This document shows, one piece after another, positions 4,136 to 25,823 of a stretch of DNA of 36,322 bases (its first letter is position 1; each line of letters starts with the position of its first letter). The position numbers and the translations under genes were made by a program. Where the stretch lies: NCBI GenBank assembly GCA_021736445.1, contig JAIPGA010000018.1, positions 1 to 36,322 on the forward strand. The letters are read 5' to 3'. The notes beneath the pieces are model-generated. The model worked only from the letters and a program-made list of their open reading frames with translations, ran no database searches and was not told the origin of the DNA. Source of the DNA: Synergistales bacterium. Its GTDB lineage: Bacteria; Synergistota; Synergistia; Synergistales; Aminiphilaceae.

Positions 4136-4663
4136 TCAGGAAGGGGAATAGCGGTTCCGGTGCACCTTGTGCAGAGGCAGCTCTTCCCTGGGATGCCCCG
4201 GCTTCTCTTCATTCCCGTAGCCCAGCGCGATGATCGACGCAACCCGGTAGTGTGCGGGGATACCGAGGATCTCCCTGGCCACATCCTCGGCCTTCGCATG
4301 GCTCGTCCCGGGCCGGTTGCGTATCTGGATCCAGCAGCTCGAGAGCCCCAGGGCTTCAGCCTCCAGCTGGATGATGACGGAGGCGATGGAGCAGTCTTCC
4401 ACCCAGACGTCGCTCTCGCGCTCGTCGGCGATCACCACCACGCCAAGGGGCGCCTCGGCGAGAAACCTGCCCCCCTGAGGTTTACAGTCAGCCAGTTCCT
4501 TCAGCAACCCCCGGGATTCTACAATGACAAACTCCCAGGGTTTGATGTTCTTCGCAGAAGGCGAACGAAGCATCGCCTCCTGCAAAGCCTCCACCTTCTC
4601 GGGCTCTACGGGGCTCTCCCTGAAACGCCGGATACTCCGCCGGTTCCGCAGCAGTTCAAGCAT
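4136..4663 (-). CDS. Nitroreductase-family flavoprotein
   Basis: About 175 residues from an ATG at 4663 preceded by GGAGGGAG. A longer in-frame start at 4747 would run into the upstream gene and lacks a site. Features are the FMN-binding start MLELLRNRRSIRRF, the segment SPSAKNIKPWEFVIV, and near the C-terminus IIALGYGNEEKPGHPREEL. Family members are FMN-dependent NAD(P)H oxidoreductases acting on nitro compounds, quinones or flavins. The physiological substrate is not predictable. It is the last gene of the minus-strand group with DUF190 and MOT1. Confidence 0.87.
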   Translation of the reverse strand: MLELLRNRRSIRRFRESPVEPEKVEALQEAMLRSPSAKNIKPWEFVIVESRGLLKELADCKPQGGRFLAEAPLGVVVIADERESDVWVEDCSIASVIIQLEAEALGLSSCWIQIRNRPGTSHAKAEDVAREILGIPAHYRVASIIALGYGNEEKPGHPREELPLHKVHRNRYSPS

Positions 4664-4703
4664 CACAATCTCCCTCCATATTCTGTGCGGTCCACGCACT
4701 CCA

Positions 4704-5012
4704 TCATTCCTCGTTTTTGGTCCCGTCGTATCGATAGAAAACAACATGGACCGGCTCCCGGGTGACCAGCCCCTCCCGCAGGGTCTCGTCGAGAAAGGGC
4801 ATCAGCTGGTCGAGCCGCTCTCCCCTGTCAACGATCTCGACAATACAGGGCAGGTCCTCGGAGAGTCGCAGGATATGCGCCGCATGGACCCGGCTGTGGG
4901 CACCGAATCCCTCCATACCGCGCAGTACGGTCACACCGGCGAGCCCCCGACGCCCATCTGTTACGACAGAGGCACTCCCCCTCTCCGGACGTCGCAGCGC
5001 CGTCTCATACAT
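4704..5012 (-). CDS. DUF190-family (PII-like) protein, short at the N-terminus
   Basis: A 102-residue soluble protein. The DUF190 signature is clear (GLAGVTVLRGMEGFGAHS, then ILRLSEDLPCIVEIVD and a C-terminal EGLVT strand). DUF190 proteins adopt a PII-like ferredoxin fold of unknown role and often sit beside transporters. The first strand usually seen in the family is absent. The ATG at 5012 overlaps the last 8 bases of the upstream MOT1 gene, and the frame upstream is closed by a TGA six codons earlier. The protein is therefore either a short variant or lost its start. The overlap implies translational coupling with the transporter, which it may regulate (inference). Confidence 0.75.
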   Translation of the reverse strand: MYETALRRPERGSASVVTDGRRGLAGVTVLRGMEGFGAHSRVHAAHILRLSEDLPCIVEIVDRGERLDQLMPFLDETLREGLVTREPVHVVFYRYDGTKNEE

Positions 5013-6213
5013 GGAAACGCTCCAATCTCAACGCGCAGGAAAGCGCAAACCCCGCCACAAACCCAACGGCAAGATTGGCAGCCAACGTCACGGCAACAAT
5101 CAAAAGCGCCACAAAGAACTCCTCCCGGCCCTCCAGGTCGATGGCCCGCATGCCGAGCTGTCCCCCGGCAAAGAGGAGCAGCACCCCCAGCACCGCCATG
5201 GGGAGCAGTTTCAGCAACTCCAGGATGGAACCGCCCAGAAAGAGGGTCAGAACGAGGAAGAACCCGCCGATCATGAGATTCGATGCCGCCGTTCTGGCGC
5301 CGAACCGGTAGTGGGCGGCGAGACCGCCGGCGCCGTGGCACATGGGCATCCCTCCCAGAAGGGCGCTGCAGAGATTGGCCGCCGACATGCTGAGCGCCGC
5401 CGTCCGGTAGGTGATCCTCCCCGCCTGCCGGCCGAAATAGGAAGAGGAGAGATCGACAAAGGCGATGTCGGCATTGAGGAGTGTCAGTGGGAGCTGGGGG
5501 ACCACGGCGAGGAAGAATGCATTCCGGAATTCCTCCGGCGACGGCCAGCCCGCAGGCAGGATCCGGGGCAGATGGAAACCGGGGTCCAGGGCATGGAAGG
5601 CCACGTCCGGACCCAGTAGCAGGGCGGCCAGCACGCCGCCGGAGACGACCGCAAGACCGGCGGGAAACCGTCGGTTGTCCACCAGCAGGAGGGTCACTAG
5701 CACACCGAGGATCCCCAGCGGAAGACCCACCGGCACACCGGCGATCTCCTGGAGAGCAAGAAAGGGCTCGGCGGCGCCCTGGAGGGCCTGAAAGGAGGAT
5801 TCCCCCAGGATAAACCGCAGGCCCTGGGTCATCAGCAGAAGCCCTGTGGTGAGCTGGACCCCTCTGATGACGGCCTTCGGTGTGCATCTCCCGATGAACC
5901 CCGCCGCTCCCGAGGCGCCGAAGAGGAGCAACGCACCACCCATGAGCAGGCCGGCGGCGTAGACCTCGCCGGCGCTCATTCCGGTGGCGATGGCATAGGC
6001 CCCGATCACCTTCATGGGCTGCACGGGAACGGTGGTCCCGAAGAAGAGACCGGAGCCGATGTAGAAGAGCCCCACCGGCAGGAAGACCGCCCCCGGGTCA
6101 AGACCGTTGACGAAGACGATCCCTATAGCGAGCGGAAGCAGGGTTCCCAGGTCACCCAGCGAACCGGCCGCTTCCAGTCTGTTCCATCTCCAGGGAAGAC
6201 CGATGATACTCAC
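5005..6213 (-). CDS. MOT1-type molybdate/sulfate transporter
   Basis: About 402 residues and ten or more hydrophobic segments. It carries both signatures of the MFS_MOT1 family of molybdate or sulfate transporters: GSLGDLGTLLPL at residues 17-28 and PVQPMKVIGAYAI at 63-75. A second paired block, FVDLSSSYFGRQAG with MPMCHGAGGLAAHYRFG, follows in the second half. Molybdate uptake would supply molybdoenzymes, but sulfate cannot be excluded. The GTG start at 6213 is chosen because translated homology begins there. The farther TTG at 6264 has no better site, so the start is uncertain. It overlaps the downstream DUF190 gene. Confidence 0.82.
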   Translation of the reverse strand: MSIIGLPWRWNRLEAAGSLGDLGTLLPLAIGIVFVNGLDPGAVFLPVGLFYIGSGLFFGTTVPVQPMKVIGAYAIATGMSAGEVYAAGLLMGGALLLFGASGAAGFIGRCTPKAVIRGVQLTTGLLLMTQGLRFILGESSFQALQGAAEPFLALQEIAGVPVGLPLGILGVLVTLLLVDNRRFPAGLAVVSGGVLAALLLGPDVAFHALDPGFHLPRILPAGWPSPEEFRNAFFLAVVPQLPLTLLNADIAFVDLSSSYFGRQAGRITYRTAALSMSAANLCSALLGGMPMCHGAGGLAAHYRFGARTAASNLMIGGFFLVLTLFLGGSILELLKLLPMAVLGVLLLFAGGQLGMRAIDLEGREEFFVALLIVAVTLAANLAVGFVAGFALSCALRLERFHV

Positions 6214-6282: not shown

Positions 6283-6945
6283 TCACACCCTGGAGATACC
6301 ATTGATCGGCTTCCCGATCCCCGACGCAAGGAGATGCCGCATCCAGTGGATGCCTGTGAGCTCCAGCCCCGCACCGCGCACCAGCCCCCCGATCTCCTCC
6401 TCGCTGAAAAACCGGGAACCGTGGAGAAAGATACCGTGCGCGGCGCCGGCCTTCCTCCCCTCATCGAGGGAACGCCTGCCGGGGGTGATCAGGACAAAGC
6501 GTCCCCCCGGCGCGAGAACTCGGGCCACCTCCTGCATGAAGCGCTCCGGCTCGGAGAGGAAAAGCAGCACCGCCACGCTGGCCCCACAGGTAAAGCTGCC
6601 GTCCGGCCAGGGGAGATTCAAGGCATCCCCCTGGTCGATACGCAACCTGCCCTCCTCGATCGCCGCCCGGTTGTTTGCGGAAGCCAGCTCCACCATATCC
6701 CGGCTGTGGTCCAGCGCGGCGGCCTTCCCGACATAGCGCAGCATCTCGCGGAGCAGGAGACCGCCCCCCTGTCCGATCTCGCAGTAGCTGTCCCGCTCGG
6801 CGGGCCGTATCCACTCCAGAACGAGGGGCGTCACATTCTGCACGGATCTGTCTTTGTACACCAGCCGCCCCATCCATCCCGACGGCTTCCGGGAAAGCCG
6901 GTCCGTCACCCAGCGGGAGAACACGTCGGGCAGTAATGTCACCAT
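6283..6945 (-). CDS. Class I SAM-dependent methyltransferase
   Basis: A 220-residue cytosolic protein. Start ATG 6945 lies 7 bases after an AAGAAGG site; a longer frame to 7074 is not supported. The SAM-binding core includes YCEIGQGGGLLL (motif I, Gly-rich) at about residues 55-66, the acidic LDHSRDMVELA and the motif-II region DQGDALNLPWPDGSF. The arrangement is that of the Methyltransf_11 type. A segment VLAPGGRFVLITPG completes the fold. The methyl acceptor is unknown. An extended -10 promoter upstream (7015-7023) suggests it begins its own transcript, which could continue into MOT1 69 bases downstream. Confidence 0.85.
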   Translation of the reverse strand: MVTLLPDVFSRWVTDRLSRKPSGWMGRLVYKDRSVQNVTPLVLEWIRPAERDSYCEIGQGGGLLLREMLRYVGKAAALDHSRDMVELASANNRAAIEEGRLRIDQGDALNLPWPDGSFTCGASVAVLLFLSEPERFMQEVARVLAPGGRFVLITPGRRSLDEGRKAGAAHGIFLHGSRFFSEEEIGGLVRGAGLELTGIHWMRHLLASGIGKPINGISRV

Positions 6946-7014
6946 GGACACACCTTCTTTGCAGGGGCAACACGTCACCGTCTCACCCAAGATAATAAGA
7001 TCTTTTACGGCAAG

Positions 7015-7023
7015 AGTATACCA
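7015..7023 (-). promoter_or_regulatory. Extended -10 promoter upstream of the methyltransferase gene
   Basis: TGGTATACT on the minus strand combines the TGn extension with a 5/6 -10 match. No good -35 is visible. A 16-base imperfect dyad (AAGAT/ATCTT arms, 6989-7004) lies just downstream of the likely start of transcription and could bind a regulator. Confidence 0.45.
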
Positions 7024-7103
7024 CAAACCGCTCCTCACAAAGATGTGGCCCCATCCCCTGGAGTGGCCCTGCACTCCTCATCGAACCGGAAAGGGGGAAC
7101 CGT

Positions 7104-8048
7104 TCAGGCCTCACTGTCTCCATGATCCGTTTCCGCCTTGTCCACCTTCTCCGGGAATCGTTCGCGTCCCCGCAAGCAGAAGAAAAAGGCCGAAGCGGCT
7201 CCGACAAAGGCCGAGGCCACCAGGAGAAAGGTATGCGCGAAGAGGGCTGCCTCCGGCCCGGGACGCCCCCCACCGAGCCACGAGGAGAGCAACCACCCGG
7301 CTTCGTAGTTTCCAAGCCCCATCCAGCCGGAGAGCGGCACCAGGAAGGCCAGCTCGGCCCCCAACGAAGCGGCCAGGATCCGGAACAATTCCCCGGACAC
7401 CACCGCACGGGTGATGGTGGCGACTGCCAGGAGTTTGAGGATCCACACAGCCATGGTCACCGTCCCCAGCCAGACAAAAGCCGGCACAGAGATCGAGGCG
7501 ATCCGCTCCAGAGGCGGACGGAGCATCGCAATCTTCCCGGGGCGGTTTGCCAGACGAAGCAACAGAACACAGAGCGGCCCCTTGACGGCCACACCAAGGA
7601 TACAGACTGCAGCCGCTGCCACAATGCCTATTTTACCCAAAAAAAGAGGCAACGCCAGGATAAGCATGCTTCCGGCGTCGAGCATCCGCCCGGCCAGCAG
7701 AAAGACAAATCCCTCCGAAAAGGGGATCCCCCTCCGCCGGACGAGCATCGGGAAAAGCAGTTCACCGCTTTTGAAGGGAAGAAAGTTGGATCCCGCGGTA
7801 TGGATCCCGACAATCCACGTGTAGGGCACCAGATTGGCGACGATCCCCCTCCCCCGCATCAAAAGCAGCCAGCGATAGGCGCGCAGCGGATAGGTGGCCA
7901 CGTAGAGCCCCAGGGCACAGAGCAGCACCGGCCCCGGCACCGTCCGCCAGAGGGCGATGGCCGGCCCGAGTTTGCCGGCCGAGGCCAGCACCCACAGCGT
8001 CACCAGTGCGATGGCCAGCGAAAAGAACGTCGACCAGCCCCTGTTCAC
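7104..8048 (-). CDS. Flippase-like membrane protein (LPG synthase TM-region / UPF0104 family)
   Basis: A 314-residue integral membrane protein with about eight hydrophobic segments. It has the family block YPLRAYRWLLLMRGRGI, then NFLPFKSGELLFPMLVRRR (the conserved glycine/arginine-rich loop), and a C-terminal PLSGWMGLGNYEAGW. This family covers the membrane half of lysyl-phosphatidylglycerol synthases and proteins suspected of moving lipid-linked sugars. No lysyltransferase domain is attached. The GTG start overlaps the GT2 gene stop by four bases (GTGA), so the two are translationally coupled. This suggests it handles the polyprenyl-sugar made by that transferase (inference). Confidence 0.82.
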   Translation of the reverse strand: MNRGWSTFFSLAIALVTLWVLASAGKLGPAIALWRTVPGPVLLCALGLYVATYPLRAYRWLLLMRGRGIVANLVPYTWIVGIHTAGSNFLPFKSGELLFPMLVRRRGIPFSEGFVFLLAGRMLDAGSMLILALPLFLGKIGIVAAAAVCILGVAVKGPLCVLLLRLANRPGKIAMLRPPLERIASISVPAFVWLGTVTMAVWILKLLAVATITRAVVSGELFRILAASLGAELAFLVPLSGWMGLGNYEAGWLLSSWLGGGRPGPEAALFAHTFLLVASAFVGAASAFFFCLRGRERFPEKVDKAETDHGDSEA

Positions 8049-9007
8049 TGCCCCAGCCCCCTTCCCAGGGTCTCGCGCACCCAGTAGGGGCGCTTCCCGT
8101 CCTTGTAGTAGGCCCGGATCAGCAGCTCGGCGAGCAGCCCCGTAGTGAAAAGCTGGGTTCCCACGAGGATGAAGAGGACGCCGATAATCAGCAGCGGACG
8201 TTTGGAAAGCTCCTCGCCGAAGCAGAACTTGAGGATCGTCAGGTAGAGGGTAATGCCGAAGCCCGCGCCGCCCAGCAGCAGCCCCATGCCCCCGAGGAGA
8301 TGGATCGGCCTGGTGCGGAAACGGAGGAGAAAGCGGACAAGGAGCAGATCGAGAACAACCTTGGGGGTTCTGGAGATGCCGTACTTGGAGGTCCCCCCCG
8401 CCCGGGGAAAGTGGTTCACCGGAATCTCGGCGACCCGTGCCCCCACCATGGAGGCCAGCGCCGGGATAAAGCGGTGCAGCTCGCCGTAGAGCTCAATCTC
8501 CTTGATCACCTCCGACCGGTAGGCCTTGAGGCTGCAGCCATAGTCGTGGAGACGCACACCCGTCAACCTGGCGATCAGCCAGTTGGCGATCCGGGAGGGG
8601 ATCCTGCGGGAAATCAGGGCGTCCTTCCTGTCCTTCCGCCATCCGCTGACGATATCGCACCCCTCGTCGAGCTTGTCCAGGAGCTGCGGGATGTCGGCCG
8701 GGTCGTTCTGGAGATCGCCGTCCATTGTCACAATGACCTCGCCCCATGCCCGTTCGAAGCCCGCACTCATGGCGGCGGTCTGTCCGAAGTTGCGGCGCAG
8801 CGAGATCCCCACCACGCCCGGTCCGGCGCGGACGATCTCCTCCAGTTTCCGCCAGGTTCCGTCGGTGCTTCCGTCGTTGATATAGATGATCTCCCACCGG
8901 AGATCGAGCCCCTCCAGCGCACGGCGGATCCGTCGATGGAGCACGCCGACGTTCTCCTCCTCATTGTAGAGCGGCACCACAACACTCATGCTGTCCGGGT
9001 ACGCCAT
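8045..9007 (-). CDS. GT2-family polyprenyl-phosphate glycosyltransferase (ArnC/GtrB-like)
   Basis: 320 residues. The GT-A domain begins SVVVPLYNEEENVG, with NDGSTDGT at residues 44-51 and the metal-binding DGD at 96-98. YGCSLKAYR follows, then two C-terminal membrane helices. This layout is that of enzymes such as ArnC, GtrB and dolichyl/undecaprenyl-phosphate mannosyltransferases, which load a sugar onto a lipid phosphate at the inner leaflet. The start ATG has a GAGG site. It precedes the flippase-like gene with a four-base overlap. Upstream is the PAP2 pair (68-base gap). With the GT39 enzyme it would make and use a lipid-linked sugar donor. The sugar is not predictable. Confidence 0.88.
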   Translation of the reverse strand: MAYPDSMSVVVPLYNEEENVGVLHRRIRRALEGLDLRWEIIYINDGSTDGTWRKLEEIVRAGPGVVGISLRRNFGQTAAMSAGFERAWGEVIVTMDGDLQNDPADIPQLLDKLDEGCDIVSGWRKDRKDALISRRIPSRIANWLIARLTGVRLHDYGCSLKAYRSEVIKEIELYGELHRFIPALASMVGARVAEIPVNHFPRAGGTSKYGISRTPKVVLDLLLVRFLLRFRTRPIHLLGGMGLLLGGAGFGITLYLTILKFCFGEELSKRPLLIIGVLFILVGTQLFTTGLLAELLIRAYYKDGKRPYWVRETLGRGLGQ

Positions 9008-9075: not shown

Positions 9076-9828
9076 CTAAATATCGTAACGGCCGTGCTTT
9101 GCGCCGTGTTGCGCTTCCATCCTCCTGAACCAGTGTGCGAAGGGGAGAGCGGCCACCGCCGCCCAGAGCGCGCCGGCCACCACATCCGCCGGCCAGTGGA
9201 CCCCGGCGAGTATCCGGGCGAAGGCGGTGCACTCCGCACAGACCAGCAGTACAAAGGCCGTGCGGTACCAACCGGTCTGGGCGGCGAAGAACGCCATCGT
9301 CCAGGTGGTGACGGTGTGCCCCGAAGGAAAGGAAAAGAATCGCCAGTCGAGTCCCGAACCCAGGATCGCCCCATACTGGAACCACCCCTGCTCGGCAACG
9401 AAAGGCCGGCTGCGGGCGAACACCACCTTCCACAGGTCGCTGGACAATCCCGCCGCCAGCGTGGCCGCAAAGAGCCCCATAATCCACAGGGCCACCCGTT
9501 CCCTGCGGTACAGTTTAGCGACAAAAAAGGCCCCGGTTATCAGCGAAAACGCCGCGACGGCGTTGCCGTAGAGGTTGCCGAACTCCCGCACCGCACCGAG
9601 CGCTCCCCCTTCCAGACCGACCACAAGGGGCTGGAGCCGGTCCAGGGAAAGGCCCGCCACAGCACCACAGACAGCGAGCAACAGCAGCCAGCGGTATCTC
9701 CGGGCAAAGGAAGGGTCGAACCAGGTGGAGAGCGCCCTGGCGTAGCCCGCCCCTACGCATCGCCAGGAAACGGCAAGGAAAAGAACCGCCATGACAATCA
9801 CGGGAAAGAGATCGCGGTCAGGCAACAT
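9076..9828 (-). CDS. PAP2-family membrane phosphatase (tandem copy 1)
   Basis: 250 residues with about six membrane helices. The full acid-phosphatase triad motifs are present: K134-x6-R141-P142, PSGH at 168-171 and R205-x5-H211-x3-D215, so it should be catalytically competent. PAP2 enzymes dephosphorylate polyprenyl diphosphates, phosphatidic acids or lipid A phosphates on the periplasmic face. ATG 9828 is preceded by GAGGGGG and overlaps the upstream PAP2 gene by 11 bases; an in-frame start at 9987 lies deep inside that gene and is rejected. It is clearly paralogous to its neighbour (shared GNLYG, AR[ST]RPF, SFPSGH, ALWAAVAALPFA). Confidence 0.88.
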   Translation of the reverse strand: MLPDRDLFPVIVMAVLFLAVSWRCVGAGYARALSTWFDPSFARRYRWLLLLAVCGAVAGLSLDRLQPLVVGLEGGALGAVREFGNLYGNAVAAFSLITGAFFVAKLYRRERVALWIMGLFAATLAAGLSSDLWKVVFARSRPFVAEQGWFQYGAILGSGLDWRFFSFPSGHTVTTWTMAFFAAQTGWYRTAFVLLVCAECTAFARILAGVHWPADVVAGALWAAVAALPFAHWFRRMEAQHGAKHGRYDI

Positions 9829-19503: not shown

Positions 19504-21033
19504 TCAGATCGTGGGCGACTCGGTGGCCGGTTCGACACGCATGGTCTCGGCCTGCAGACCGCGGTAGAGGGAATAGCAGGCAAAGAGCATGACGATCTCG
19601 AAGGGGAAGGCCGCCGCGATGGAAGCGATCTGCAGCGCCTTGAGGCCCCCGGTCAGCAGCAGGGTGAAGGCCAGGGCCGCCTGCAGTGTCCCCCAGATGG
19701 CCATGTATCCCTTTGGCGGGTTGAGGTTCCCCTGGCTGGAGTACATGGAGAGCACGAAGGTCGCCGAGTTGGCTGAGGTGATGAAGAAGGTGGAGATCAG
19801 CACCAGGGCGGCCAGGGAAAGCAGCATGCCCAGCGGATAGTACTGGAAGACCTCGAAGAGCCCGGTGGAGATGTCGTTGACTATCACCTGGCCCACCTCG
19901 GCGATCCCGGCCAGCTCCAGATTCATTGCAGAAGTCCCGAAGACGGCGAACCAGCAGAAGCTGCCCAGACAGGGCACCAGCAGCACGCCGAACACGAACT
20001 CCCGCACCGTGCGGCCCCGGGAGATCCGGGCGATGAAGGTCCCCACGAAGGGCGCCCAGGCGATCCACCAGGCCCAGTAGAAGAGCGTCCAGGCGCCCTG
20101 CCACTCCGCCAGTGCGCCGCCGAAGGGGGTCATCTTGAGGCTCTCCTGGATGACGGTGTTGAAGTAGTAGCCCATGGAAGTCAGCAGCATCATCAGCGAT
20201 TTGACGGTGGGCCCGATCAGGAAGAAGGCACCCAGGAGGAAGAGGGCGATGTAGAGGTTCATAGTGGAGATGAACTTGATGCCCTTTTCGATACCTGTCA
20301 CCGCCGAGCCGGTGTAGATCAGCCCGATGACCACGATGATCATCAGCTGCGTCATGATGGAGTTGGGGATACTGAAGAGATACTCCAGGCCGCTGCCGAT
20401 CTGGAGCGTCCCCAGACCCAGGGAGGTGGCGATCCCGGCAACGGTGGCGAAGATGGCGAGCACATCGATGGTCTTGCCGATGGGGCCGCGCACACCCTTC
20501 TCCCCCAGGATGGGCAGGAAAACGCTGCTGATCAGCCCAGGCGCATTCTTGCGGAACTGGAAGAAAGCCAGAGACAGGGCGATGACGCCGTAGCTTGCCC
20601 AGGGGTGGATCCCCCAGTGGAGGAAGGAGATCTGCATCGCCTGCATGGCGGCCTCAGGGGTCTCCCCCGGCCCCACAGGGGGGCTCATGAAGTGGTACAT
20701 GGGCTCGCCGATCCCGTAGAAGACCAGGCCGATACCCATCCCGGCGCTGAAGAGCATGGCGAACCAGGACACGTTGGAGAACTCCGGCGTGGAATCCGGC
20801 GGACCGAGCTTGACCTTCCCGAAGGGGCCCAGCCCCATAAACAGCAGAAAGACAACAAAGATGGACATGGAGAGCATGTAGCTCCAGCCCATGTTGGCGA
20901 TCAGGAAATTGAAGGTTCCGTTGGCCGCCCCGCTGAAGGTCTCGGGGGAAAAGAGCCCCCAGAGCACGACGCCGACTGTGATCACAGGCGCAATAACGAA
21001 TACGGCATTCAAGCCGCCTGAACGCGACTGCAT
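19504..21033 (-). CDS. BCCT-family transporter (betaine/carnitine/choline type)
   Basis: 509 residues and 12 membrane helices, typical of BCCT carriers. Signatures: the glycine-rich stretch GMGIGLVFYGIGEPMYHF in TM3, and the Trp box in TM8 (WTLFYWAWWIAWAPF) that cages quaternary ammonium groups in BetP-like carriers, followed by ARISRGRTVREF. The C-terminal tail is short, so osmotic gating as in BetP is unlikely. It is the last gene after grdA-grdI-grdH. Its position argues that it imports glycine betaine for reduction. A strong hairpin in the 118-base gap to grdH (21108-21136) could lower its expression relative to the reductase. Confidence 0.92.
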   Translation of the reverse strand: MQSRSGGLNAVFVIAPVITVGVVLWGLFSPETFSGAANGTFNFLIANMGWSYMLSMSIFVVFLLFMGLGPFGKVKLGPPDSTPEFSNVSWFAMLFSAGMGIGLVFYGIGEPMYHFMSPPVGPGETPEAAMQAMQISFLHWGIHPWASYGVIALSLAFFQFRKNAPGLISSVFLPILGEKGVRGPIGKTIDVLAIFATVAGIATSLGLGTLQIGSGLEYLFSIPNSIMTQLMIIVVIGLIYTGSAVTGIEKGIKFISTMNLYIALFLLGAFFLIGPTVKSLMMLLTSMGYYFNTVIQESLKMTPFGGALAEWQGAWTLFYWAWWIAWAPFVGTFIARISRGRTVREFVFGVLLVPCLGSFCWFAVFGTSAMNLELAGIAEVGQVIVNDISTGLFEVFQYYPLGMLLSLAALVLISTFFITSANSATFVLSMYSSQGNLNPPKGYMAIWGTLQAALAFTLLLTGGLKALQIASIAAAFPFEIVMLFACYSLYRGLQAETMRVEPATESPTI

Positions 21034-21107
21034 CTCTCACTCACCCTTTTCGATCGTCTTTGGTGGTCTGCGTGCCGTACTACAGTCCCGCTGCTCCGCA
21101 CACAAAC

Positions 21108-21136
21108 CTGGAGGAGGCGCAGACCGCCTCCTCCAG
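21108..21136 (-). terminator. 12-bp hairpin between grdH and the BCCT gene
   Basis: CTGGAGGAGGCG (21108-21119) pairs perfectly with CGCCTCCTCCAG (21125-21136), 5-base loop. On the minus strand it is followed by GTTTGTGTG. It is likely a partial terminator inside the operon. Confidence 0.65.
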
Positions 21137-21151
21137 CCGGTTCATCTACAG

Positions 21152-22465
21152 CTAGACCTTCACGGGGAACTGGGTCTGTTCCTCCACCGGGGTGGTCAGG
21201 GCGTCGAAGGCCACTCCCACCCGATGCAGGCGGAGCTTCCACTCGGCCTCCTCCGACGCGTCGGGGAGCCCCAGCGGGTACGGCACGGAAACAGTCTGGA
21301 CAATGCGGTTGGAGCCCACACTGAGGGCGATGTCCACCAGGTTGCAGAGGACGGTCACGGGGATCCCCGTACGCTCGATCTCTTTTGCCATCGTTGCACC
21401 GCAACGAGTACAGGTTCCTCAGGTGGCGACAAGCAGAACGGCGTCGATCTCGGCCTCATGCAGCTCCGCGGCGATCTCGCGTCCCATGCGGGCCGCCTCG
21501 CCCTGGGAGGTCCCGGTCCCGACAGTGGAGTAGAAGAAGGGATGCAGCGACCCGAATTTGCCTTCCTTCAGGTAGGTCTTCACCGCATCCAGCGGCAGAA
21601 TCCGGTTGGGGTTGGCGTTGGCCGCAGCGGGGTCGAAACCGGCGTGGATGGTCTTGTATTCGCCCGCCGGAAGGACGTCCAGCTCGGAGATGTCGTACTT
21701 GCCCCACTTGGTGGCCGAGGCGGACTGGATATGGTCCGGGTTGTCGCTGGGAACGATGCCGCCGGAGGTCACCAGGGCCACCCTGGCCTTCGAGAGATCG
21801 GAGACCGCTTCGGCGATGGGGATCCGCTCGGTCTTGGGGATGGGCAGCTCTGTGCGCACGGGCTCTCCATTCAGCTTCCGGAGCAGCATGTCCACCACGC
21901 GGTCCGCGGCCTGGACGGGTTCGTCCAGGAAGTACTGGTGCCGGATCCCCCGGGGGAAGTATCCTTCTTCTGCTGCCGGACGGAGTTCCTCGCCGGCGAC
22001 GATCCTGTTGATGAAGGCCGTCATCCTGGTGAGATCCTTTTTCATGGAGGTGGCCTTCCTGCCGGCGGGGAAGATGTACATGTCCTTCACGAACATCTCC
22101 ACACCGGGGTTCTCCTCGTTCATCGCCGTCACCACGGGGACGCCGAAGCGTTCCGAGACGGCCTTGCCGACCTGGCCGCAGGCGTTGGCGTAACGGCCCG
22201 CCAGGAAGGACGGACCGGCCACGAAGAGGTCGAACTCGATCCCGTCCAGCATAGCGAGGACATCCTTGACGGCGCCTTCCGGGTCGGCGGTCATGTGGTT
22301 GTCGCCGCCGATGATGGTGTGGGTCACCTCGGCATCCGCCAGCATGCTGTCCAACAGCTGGGCGGGCCCGACGGTTCCCTCCCGGAGCTCCGGCGCCATG
22401 TCGGCCTTCTCTTCACCGCCGACCTGGCCGAAGAACTGGTTGATGTAATGGATCACCTTTTTCAT
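21152..22465 (-). CDS. grdH: Betaine reductase component B, selenocysteine subunit (GrdH; GrdB/GrdF family)
   Basis: A 437-residue selenoprotein. The in-frame TGA at 21419-21421 encodes Sec349 in the motif VATUGTCTRCG, so U349-xx-C352-xx-C355, the family's active site. Without readthrough the gene appears as two pieces (348 and about 79 residues); the frame continues with MAKEIERTGIPVTVLCNLVDIA, as in family members. Component B binds the substrate and passes the carboxymethyl group to the selenium of GrdA. The ATG has GGGGAGG upstream. A SECIS-like hairpin follows the TGA. It is assigned to betaine rather than glycine because the partner GrdI lacks the pyruvoyl cysteine and a BCCT carrier follows. 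Sarcosine (GrdF) is the main alternative. Confidence 0.9.
21391..21407 (-). promoter_or_regulatory. SECIS-like hairpin in grdH
   Basis: On the minus strand TCGTTGC-GGT-GCAACGA forms a 7-bp stem with a GGU triloop. The stem begins 11 bases after the selenocysteine TGA and the loop starts 18 bases after it. Bacterial SECIS elements have a short stem with a GU-containing apical loop at about this distance, so this should recruit SelB. Confidence 0.7.
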
Positions 22466-22483
22466 CGTGCTTCCTCCCCTCCC

Positions 22484-23794
22484 CTAGTACTCCACACAGG
22501 TCTTCACGGAGAACCCGGCGATCTCATCACCGCAGAACATGGCGTTGTTCTCCATGACCAGCGAGCCGTCTTCGCGGACGCAGCCTTCCCATCCTCCGGA
22601 GAGGCCGTCCCTGGCCAGGGACTCCAGCTCACCGATGACGGTGTCCATAGGGGGCAGCTCGATCAGCTGGGAGACGTTGCCGGTGGAGACGATGGCGTCC
22701 GCCGATTCGTGGAGGGAGACCAGCGGCTGGGACTGTCCGTCCCGGCCGGTGCACTCGTTGGTGATGCCTGCGGTCTTGATGCCCGCCCTCTCCAGCTCGA
22801 CGATGGCCTGAATGAAGTCCACATCGGGGTTGCCGTAGCCCTCTTCGGCCACGATGGCGCCTTCCGCCCCGAGATGCTCGGCCATCCGGCGGAGCATGAT
22901 CGCCGAACGGCGCTTCTGCTCCATGGAGACATTGAGGTTGGAGACGATGACGCCCAGGAAGTTGAGGGTTTCGCCGTGCTCCTTCATGAGCCGCTTGATG
23001 GTGGGGTTGTTCTGGTGGTCGTAGGTGGACATCTTGGAGGAAACAGGCATGAAGCTCCCCGAGATGACGGCGCCGTCGAAGATTTCATTGGGGTGCATGA
23101 AGGTGGGAAGCATCCGGTTGCCGTCCCAGCCGTAGACCAGCGAGTTGTAGCCGAGCTCCTCCATCTGGGTCTGGAGCTGAACCACATAGACCACCGAGGG
23201 CAGCTCCTTCAGGCGCTCCTCCCGGCCGGCCACAGGCTCGAGGTCGAAGACCTCCATCTCCTCCGGCTCAGCCTCGGCGACAGCCGTGCCGATGTACTCG
23301 GCGAGCTTGTGTCCGGCGGCGCGGAGGGCGATATTCTTCTTCTGCTGCTCGTAGCGCTCGTCCTCCTCGTCGGTGTCGCCGACCAGGACGATGTTTTTGA
23401 GCTGCGAGTAGGGGTAGGTGTACTTGGCGCCGGGGCCGCTCATGTCGATCAGACCGTCCTGGAAGCCGCCCCAGTGCTTCCCGACAACGGTGACACAGCA
23501 GTCTTTCAGCGCGTGGGTCCGGCCCGATCCGACCGGCTCGAGATCGTTGTTGTACCCGGGGAACATCACGCCGCCGTCCACCTTGCAGCGGGGCTCGATG
23601 ACCTCCTTGACGGGAACGAGCCGGACCGCGTCGCCGGGGGCGACGACCCGGATGTCGGCATCGGTGATATGCTCGTCCTCGTAGACGACCTCCAGGGCCT
23701 CCTGCTTGTTGATGGTCAGCGTGCCCTTCTCGTAGCGTGTGGCGTCACCAAAGGCAATCTCTTTCACGTGGAACGAACCGAGTTCGAGTCGCAT
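22484..23794 (-). CDS. grdI: Betaine reductase component B, second subunit (GrdI; GrdE/GrdG family)
   Basis: 436 residues, full length for the family. Recognisable blocks: FGDATRYEKGTLTINK near the start, FQDGLIDMSGPGAKYTYPYS, MHPNEIFDGAVISGSFMP (about 233-250), and GITNECTGRDGQSQPLVS (about 343-360). In glycine reductase the GrdE precursor is cleaved at a cysteine near residue 242 to create a pyruvoyl group. Here the matching region, around residues 240-260, has no cysteine (MPVSSKMSTY). That fits the uncleaved betaine and sarcosine subunits. It lies 12 bases after grdA and 18 before grdH, with a GGGAGGG site. Confidence 0.9.
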   Translation of the reverse strand: MRLELGSFHVKEIAFGDATRYEKGTLTINKQEALEVVYEDEHITDADIRVVAPGDAVRLVPVKEVIEPRCKVDGGVMFPGYNNDLEPVGSGRTHALKDCCVTVVGKHWGGFQDGLIDMSGPGAKYTYPYSQLKNIVLVGDTDEEDERYEQQKKNIALRAAGHKLAEYIGTAVAEAEPEEMEVFDLEPVAGREERLKELPSVVYVVQLQTQMEELGYNSLVYGWDGNRMLPTFMHPNEIFDGAVISGSFMPVSSKMSTYDHQNNPTIKRLMKEHGETLNFLGVIVSNLNVSMEQKRRSAIMLRRMAEHLGAEGAIVAEEGYGNPDVDFIQAIVELERAGIKTAGITNECTGRDGQSQPLVSLHESADAIVSTGNVSQLIELPPMDTVIGELESLARDGLSGGWEGCVREDGSLVMENNAMFCGDEIAGFSVKTCVEY

Positions 23795-23806
23795 ACTTTC
23801 CCTCCC

Positions 23807-24283
23807 TTACAGGCTGTAGGAGCCGCTCTCTTCGCGCATCGACCTGACCGACGCGGTGAGGGCGTCCACATCCAACACCATTTCCATCATGCCTACCTGG
23901 TCTTCCCAGAGGGAGGGATCGACCTCTTCCTTGATCTCCGGTTCCACAACGTGGTACGTGGCGAGTCCCAACGGGACTCCCGCCAAGGGACCTGCAAAGG
24001 TGGGATCTCCTGCGGTCACCGTCTCGGCATAGATCTCCGCGCCTTCGGCGTCGGAGCTTCCGAGAACGACCACAACGTTCTCCGCACCGTGCTGCTCCAC
24101 CGCATCCTTGATGCGCTGCTGGTTCTGCAGGTCCATGGCGCCCGCCGCCGTTCAGACGAAACACTCGGTGGCGGAGAAGACGATCTCCGCTCCGGTGTCC
24201 TTGAGGCAGGTTTCCATCACGGGGCCGGCCACACCGTCACGCTCGCCGAGCAACAGCAACCTCTTTCCTGCGAGCTTTCCCAC
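23807..24283 (-). CDS. grdA: Glycine/sarcosine/betaine reductase component A, selenoprotein GrdA
   Basis: 158 residues, the usual length. GTG 24283 is chosen because GAGGAGG lies upstream and it places the in-frame TGA (24152-24154) at residue 44, the position of selenocysteine in known GrdA. Motif: SATECFVUTAAGAM, with C41 and U44 forming the redox pair. The N-terminus [13 protein letters not shown] and the C-terminal part ([36 protein letters not shown]) match the family. GrdA carries the selenoether intermediate from component B to component C, which releases acetyl phosphate, and is re-reduced by thioredoxin. It is the first gene of the operon, divergent from a nitroreductase. Confidence 0.94.
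24137..24149 (-). promoter_or_regulatory. Weak SECIS candidate in grdA
   Basis: GGCG-GCGGG-CGCC on the minus strand could fold a 4-bp stem starting three bases after the selenocysteine TGA. It is short, GC-rich and lacks a GU loop, so this is a tentative assignment. grdA SECIS elements are known to be poorly conserved. Confidence 0.25.
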
Positions 24284-24462: not shown

Positions 24463-25005
24463 ATGGAGGATTTTCTCGCACTCTGCCGAAAGCGGCGGAG
24501 CGTTCGGCGGTACCGCGGCGATCCGGTTCCCGAAGACGTACTGGAGCGCTGCCTGGAGGCAGCCAGGCTGGCGCCGTCGGCATGCAACAGACAGCCCTGG
24601 CGTTTCCACGTGGTGCGGACGCCGCAAACCGTATCGCGGCTTGGAGGGGCCATCTTCGGCGGCCCCTACCGGATGAATCGCTTTGCGCAGAAGGCTCCGG
24701 TGCTGATTGTGGCGGAACGGATACGGGAGGCGGCCGCGCCCGCCTTTGCGGGGCTTGTGGCCCGCACCCAGTTTAGTCTCATGGACGTGGCCATCGCCGC
24801 GGAACAGCTGATCCTGCAGGCCGCAGAGGAAGGGCTGGGCAGCTGCTGGCTGGGGTGGTTCTCGCGGCGGCAGACCAGGAAGGTGCTGGGGCTCCCCGTC
24901 ACCGCCAGTCTGGAAGCCGTCATCAGCCTCGGGTACCCCGTTCAGGAAGAGAAAACCCCGGCTACGGCGAGGAAGGAGACGAACGAGATCGCCCGGTTCT
25001 ACTGA
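24463..25005 (+). CDS. Nitroreductase-family flavoprotein
   Basis: 180 residues. FMN-binding N-terminus [16 protein letters not shown], then [13 protein letters not shown] at about 39-51, the dimer/FMN segment [20 protein letters not shown] (about 107-126), and [10 protein letters not shown]. This is the NAD(P)H-dependent oxidoreductase fold of the family; the substrate is unknown. It differs markedly from the nitroreductase at 4136-4663, so they are not recent duplicates. It is divergent from grdA and 131 bases before a GntR-type regulator. ATG 24463 has GGAAGGGG at some distance. Confidence 0.88.
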
Positions 25006-25058
25006 TCCGACCGGCGGTCGCCTGCGTCCATAGCAGAGTGCGCACCGCTTCCATCGTG

Positions 25059-25064
25059 TATAAT
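25059..25064 (+). promoter_or_regulatory. Perfect -10 (TATAAT) upstream of the FCD regulator
   Basis: TATAAT lies 72 bases before the regulator's ATG. No -35 matches at 16-18 bases upstream, so activation or weak expression is possible. A GTATAC palindrome follows 10 bases downstream. Confidence 0.4.
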
Positions 25065-25136
25065 GGGGTTTCGTATACCGGAGACACAGGGGAGGGAACG
25101 CTTCATCGGACGAAATGCCGGGTGGAGTGGCGGCGG

Positions 25137-25823
25137 ATGACAGACGAGACACTGGTGGAACAGGCCTACACGCTCCTCAGGAGGGCGATCCTGCAACGGA
25201 CCTTCCGGCCGGGGATGAAGCTCTCGACCCTTTCGCTCTCCAGGGAGATGGGCATCAGCCGGACGCCGGTGCGCCTTGCGCTCCAGAGCCTCGCCTCGGA
25301 GGGACTGGTGGAGATGCGCTCCAACCAGACACCCCAGGTGGCCAATCCCTCCGCCCGGACGGTGCAGGAGATCTTTTACATGCGCTGTCTTCTGGAACCC
25401 GAAGCGGCGGCGCTGGCCTGCGGCTCATCCAGGCGGGAGGAGCTGGCGGAGGAGCTGCGGCAAGGCGCTGAAGCGGAACGCCGGGCCTTCAGCAAACGTC
25501 TGCTCGACGACTACCTGGAGGCCAACGAACGTTTCCACAGCACCATCGCCGGGATGTGCGGCAACGAAACCCTGGCGACGACGATCAGGCCCTTTCTCGC
25601 CCGCTCCACGGTGATCCTCTCGCTCTTCGACCCCTTCTACGAGTTTTCCGAGGACGAGGAACAGCGGATCATCCGTGAAAACAGAGCTCTCGTCGCCGCC
25701 ATCGGCCGCGGTGACGGCCAGTGGGCCCGGGAGACCATGCGGAACCACATCGAGACCACCTACCGCAATCTCCCCGTCCACGCCATCGAGGAGGCGACAC
25801 GGACAGTGGCGCGACTGAAGTAG
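25137..25823 (+). CDS. GntR-family transcriptional regulator (FCD type)
   Basis: 228 residues from ATG 25137 behind GGTGGAG; a longer in-frame extension lies in the nitroreductase region and is rejected. The winged helix occupies about residues 8-72 (LSTLSLSREMGISRTPVRLA is the recognition part). The FCD effector domain (about 80-220) has the metal/ligand-type residues NERFHSTIAGMCGN and a late RNHIETTYRN. The target is unknown. The neighbouring nitroreductase or the grd operon are candidates by position only. Confidence 0.88.
   Translation: MTDETLVEQAYTLLRRAILQRTFRPGMKLSTLSLSREMGISRTPVRLALQSLASEGLVEMRSNQTPQVANPSARTVQEIFYMRCLLEPEAAALACGSSRREELAEELRQGAEAERRAFSKRLLDDYLEANERFHSTIAGMCGNETLATTIRPFLARSTVILSLFDPFYEFSEDEEQRIIRENRALVAAIGRGDGQWARETMRNHIETTYRNLPVHAIEEATRTVARLK

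Follow-up and report, generated by a model that had tools for sequence, protein, structure and literature searches.

The closest described systems are a grdHI betaine reductase cluster with opuD (BCCT) from Candidatus 'Betaina sedimentti' (PMC6716910) and, in the Synergistota, the opuD-containing cluster for betaine-type protein B of Cloacibacillus porcorum MFA1 (PMC10838667). The operon type is already published for Bacillota and Synergistota, and it is common. Here we describe a locus in a 36,322-nucleotide stretch of DNA (the window) from a Synergistales bacterium of the family Aminiphilaceae, which is very probably a glycine betaine reductase operon with betaine as a Stickland-type electron acceptor. 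The locus resembles that of 'Betaina sedimentti' in that a BCCT-type carrier for betaine accompanies GrdH and GrdI, in its dependence on selenocysteine and in the proposed chemistry leading to acetyl phosphate and trimethylamine. However, the published cluster figure includes trxA, trxB and selA (PMC6716910), whereas the window has a second grdA at the head of the operon, and the selenocysteine genes and trxB are located on other contigs. C. porcorum MFA1 belongs to the same phylum and also has several selenocysteine-containing grdB paralogues, one set being near a betaine carrier gene, but it has eight grdB genes (PMC10838667) compared to the four of this genome, among which the fluoroacetate reductase farEB of strain MFA1 was not recognised.

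The identical gene order (grdA-grdI-grdH-BCCT) and strand were found, among others, in Acetomicrobium, Dethiosulfovibrio and Halanaerobium (L073, L080, L103, L122, L123), where the only difference seen was sequence divergence, with a GrdH 59-63% identical to that of the window. Protein B was matched in 135 of 188 Synergistota genomes, and about 58 of the 188 reach at least 56% identity to the window GrdH. In the three further genomes sampled from this Synergistota family, the best match reaches only 48% identity and the betaine type is lacking; the locus adds a betaine-type member to the family. Betaine reduction forms trimethylamine, from which methane arises in sediments and TMAO in animals.

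Gene content and organisation of the operon

All four genes were found on the minus strand where the preliminary description had placed them, with scores far above the family-level cut-offs. The gene for selenoprotein A, grdA (23807..24283), has a GTG start behind GAGGAGG (NF040748, 256 bits, cut-off 130), and the genome contains two copies of GrdA. The grdA gene is followed by grdI (22484..23794), encoding the alpha subunit of a betaine-type protein B (PF09338, 611 bits, cut-off 22.2), by grdH (21152..22465), encoding the betaine-type selenoprotein B (TIGR01918, 608.7 bits, cut-off 65.45), and by the gene of a BCCT glycine-betaine carrier of OpuD/BetP type (19504..21033; PF02028, 612 bits, cut-off 27). 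The short gaps that had been reported between the genes are present in the grdA-grdI (12 bp) and grdI-grdH (18 bp) spacers, but not between grdH and the carrier gene, where the spacer is 118 bp long and contains a 12-pair hairpin. Judging from the known pathway, the operon would be transcribed jointly.

Routine annotation breaks the locus at two UGA codons. As had been anticipated, standard gene calling cuts grdH to 348 amino acids and breaks grdA at the UGA in positions 24154-24152. On the other side of grdA, a nitroreductase-family gene (24463..25005, plus strand) is a divergent neighbour outside the operon. A GntR/FCD regulator gene is also located nearby (24855-25823, plus strand), and it is a putative regulator of the operon.

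Selenocysteine sites and decoding machinery

Both in-frame UGA codons were found at the predicted positions, and they look like true selenocysteine sites. In grdA, the UGA is codon 44 (24154-24152, minus strand) in the context TECFVUTAAGAMD, which contains the CxxU site of the family (CFVU44). In grdH it is codon 349 (21421-21419, minus strand) in the context VATUGTCTRCGA, with the UxxCxxC motif UGTCTRC. A single in-frame UGA at the same motif was present in all 117 GrdB/GrdH relatives, and a SECIS_4 element (RF01990; 21381..21418, minus strand; 61.8 bits, gathering threshold 38) begins, according to Rfam, at the first base past the grdH UGA. No Rfam SECIS match was found for grdA, so the case for recoding there consists of an intact frame with the CxxU site of the family, and of the grdA copy on another contig (C68), which has the same UGA and encodes a protein identical to the window GrdA at 120 of 158 aligned positions. 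Folding energies computed for the 57 bases past each UGA were uninformative (z between -1.5 and 0.5). Columns 17 and 27 of the grdH stem are paired in 91 of 91 distinct sequences with three pair types, although the covariation is thin, as most other stem columns are invariant and fixed by the protein sequence.

The preliminary description, which regarded both codons as conserved sites of their families, had proposed aligning the downstream frames and searching for the selenocysteine genes. The frames beyond both UGAs turned out to be conserved in alignments, and selA, selB, selC and selD are all present in the same assembly. The selA and selB genes are side by side on contig C4, and the tRNA-Sec with anticodon UCA is on C21. 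The selD gene on C32 (L032, G000:C32:14500-18500) has an in-frame UGA of its own, and its product is therefore probably itself a selenoprotein. It could be argued that the two UGAs in the window are real stops and that the genes are decayed remnants whose downstream frames are untranslated, which would agree with the stop codons themselves and with grdA not matching a SECIS model. This is scarcely credible, as the UGA is shared by every one of the GrdB/GrdH relatives, SECIS_4 follows the UGA in grdH, the frames of grdA and grdH are intact to their normal ends and the genome has the complete machinery; decay was ruled out on these grounds.

Substrate class of protein B

Among the substrate-specific models, the window GrdH scored best with that of betaine reductase (NF040795, 701 bits, compared to 522 for sarcosine and 466 for glycine), although below its cut-off of 775. 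Five other Synergistota members that were tested also stayed below this cut-off, with 660-744 bits. The genome has four protein B beta subunits with one UGA each, and two of them, on C68 and C22, show the reverse preference and exceed the cut-off of the glycine model (606 and 633 vs 602). In a tree with FastTree local supports only and without any experimentally characterised GrdH, the window GrdH was placed inside the betaine-type clade and apart from the other GrdBs of the genome. Its branch is long (0.36), and within the clade it joins a group with a support of 99 whose 47 rows are mostly from Synergistota. No solved structure related in sequence to GrdA, GrdH or GrdI was found.

The alpha subunit is more discriminating. 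In the window GrdI, SGSFMPVSSK (from residue 245) stands where the glycine type has SGNCVSACDK, with pyruvoyl cleavage at the Asn-Cys within the GNCVSAC motif. In betaine-type GrdI this site is absent and SGSFMP is present in 77 of 77 covered relatives, whereas Asn and Cys are both kept in each of the 23 glycine-type subunits that were aligned. Three of these are the GrdE-like proteins of this genome, which read SGNCVSAC, SGNCVSAC and SGNCAAPC, and the other 20 come from elsewhere in the phylum. Schiff base formation is not possible for a quaternary amine, and the missing pyruvoyl site in GrdI fits with this. Lacking Asn-Cys, the window subunit was not assigned to glycine or sarcosine reductase (GrdE/GrdB, GrdG/GrdF), and these types were ruled out by the models and the tree as well. 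Previously, GrdI of betaine reductase has been described as not being a proprotein (PMC10838667). The difference between SGSFMP and SGNC in the alpha subunit offers a simple marker for separating betaine-type from glycine-type clusters in metagenomes.

Residues that never vary in the betaine type and hardly occur in the glycine type mark candidate specificity positions, and there are 44 of them in GrdI and 16 in GrdH. Three of these, GrdI W223 and F248 and GrdH W254, have aromatic side chains, which may point to a cation-binding site.

The BCCT carrier and the spacer hairpin

The carrier reached 647.7 bits with the betaine equivalog model, just under the cut-off of 650. It is close to BetP, and the aromatic motifs HWGIHPWASY and FYWAWWIAWAPFVG are kept when aligned with a solved trimethylamine carrier of the BCCT family; in BetP, these motifs of TM4 and TM8 bind betaine. 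A BCCT gene is directly downstream of GrdH in 62 of 80 relatives across Bacillota and Synergistota, and none was found near the 23 glycine-type or other non-betaine clusters, in stretches of about 11-16 kb around each. GrdI is directly upstream in 79 of the 80 named relatives, the remaining one being cut by a contig end, and GrdA is nearby on the same strand in 29; the 80 were picked by similarity and are not independent.

With the carrier included, specificity for betaine is well supported by the models and tree, the lost pyruvoyl site and the neighbouring BCCT gene, all of them sequence comparisons. A related quaternary or N-methylated compound, for example dimethylglycine or dimethylsulfonioacetate, might be reduced instead of or besides glycine betaine, as the GrdH is under the betaine model cut-off on its long branch, and the BCCT family also includes carriers of choline, carnitine and trimethylamine. 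However, we consider this improbable, since the carrier is nearest to the betaine model with both aromatic motifs kept, and it is the betaine type that the locus matches in gene order and in the loss of the pyruvoyl site.

BCCT-family carriers often function in osmoprotection, and together with the 118-bp spacer and its strong hairpin this could mean that the carrier is an osmoprotectant transporter, separately expressed and beside the reductase by chance. Such a coincidence is very unlikely, as the same neighbour recurs in most of the relatives but in none of the glycine-type clusters, and another BCCT gene is found elsewhere in the genome (contig C70).

The hairpin (21108..21136, minus strand) has 12 pairs and a weak T-rich tail. 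Stems of at least nine pairs were found in the grdH-BCCT spacers of 27 of 59 relatives, far more than in mononucleotide shuffles, where 20 rounds gave 0.55 on average and never more than 2, although the loci with hairpins are related and the number overstates independent events. The stem sequences vary between lineages. The hairpin may separate the expression of the carrier from that of the reductase, but a terminator ending the grdIH transcript would look the same. We put forward only tentatively, as a joint proposal that is rather doubtful, that the hairpin is a recurring attenuator or mRNA end that uncouples BCCT from the reductase in several lineages, and that SGSFMP with GrdI W223 and GrdH W254 forms a site activating the quaternary ammonium.

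Proposed pathway and other protein B loci in the genome

The other components of the pathway are also encoded in the genome, an assembly of 2.45 Mb that is 97.6% complete. Their spread over separate contigs, of which there are 112, and an estimated contamination of 3.35% count to some degree against the reading. As the preliminary description had proposed to look for them, grdC and grdD were sought outside the window, and they are present on C68 (NF040746, 726.8 bits, and NF040747, 560.3 bits, both above cut-off) in a glycine reductase cluster of grdC, grdD, grdE, grdB and the other grdA. The operon in the window thus provides what is specific for the substrate, together with a second selenoprotein A, and draws on a common protein C. 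The trxB gene is on C17 and ackA on C4. No sign of a binning error was seen, the stretches from C68, C22, C46, C4 and C32 having tetranucleotide correlations of 0.95-0.98 with the window and the short piece from C21 0.84.

It seems, from sequence comparison, that the cell would be able to import betaine and use it as a Stickland-type acceptor, as suggested earlier; the substrate, reaction order and electron flow are taken from the known pathway. Glycine betaine would be imported by the BCCT carrier and bound by GrdI/GrdH without a pyruvoyl group. The selenocysteine of GrdH would then attack the methylene carbon, with trimethylamine leaving, and the carboxymethyl group would be transferred to selenocysteine 44 of GrdA. 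GrdC and GrdD, encoded on the other contig and common with glycine reductase, would release acetyl phosphate, from which AckA could form ATP, and GrdA would be reduced again by thioredoxin reductase and thioredoxin.

The remaining protein B loci differ from that of the window in several respects. A glycine-type GrdE/GrdB pair with a sodium-dependent carrier is located on C22 (L029, 6199-11066, minus strand), with a glycine riboswitch (RF00504, 64 bits, 9459-9566) and SECIS_4 in grdB. On C46 (L030, G000:C46:4000-18440), a divergent GrdE/GrdB-like pair lies upstream of a TRAP carrier (about 6287-8930, minus strand), and its GrdB, the most divergent of the four in the genome, reads UGTGTRC, having lost the first Cys of CxxC. 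In the C68 cluster (L028), a putative prolyl-tRNA synthetase relative, read by eye, is located between grdA and grdC (about 4140-5630, minus strand).
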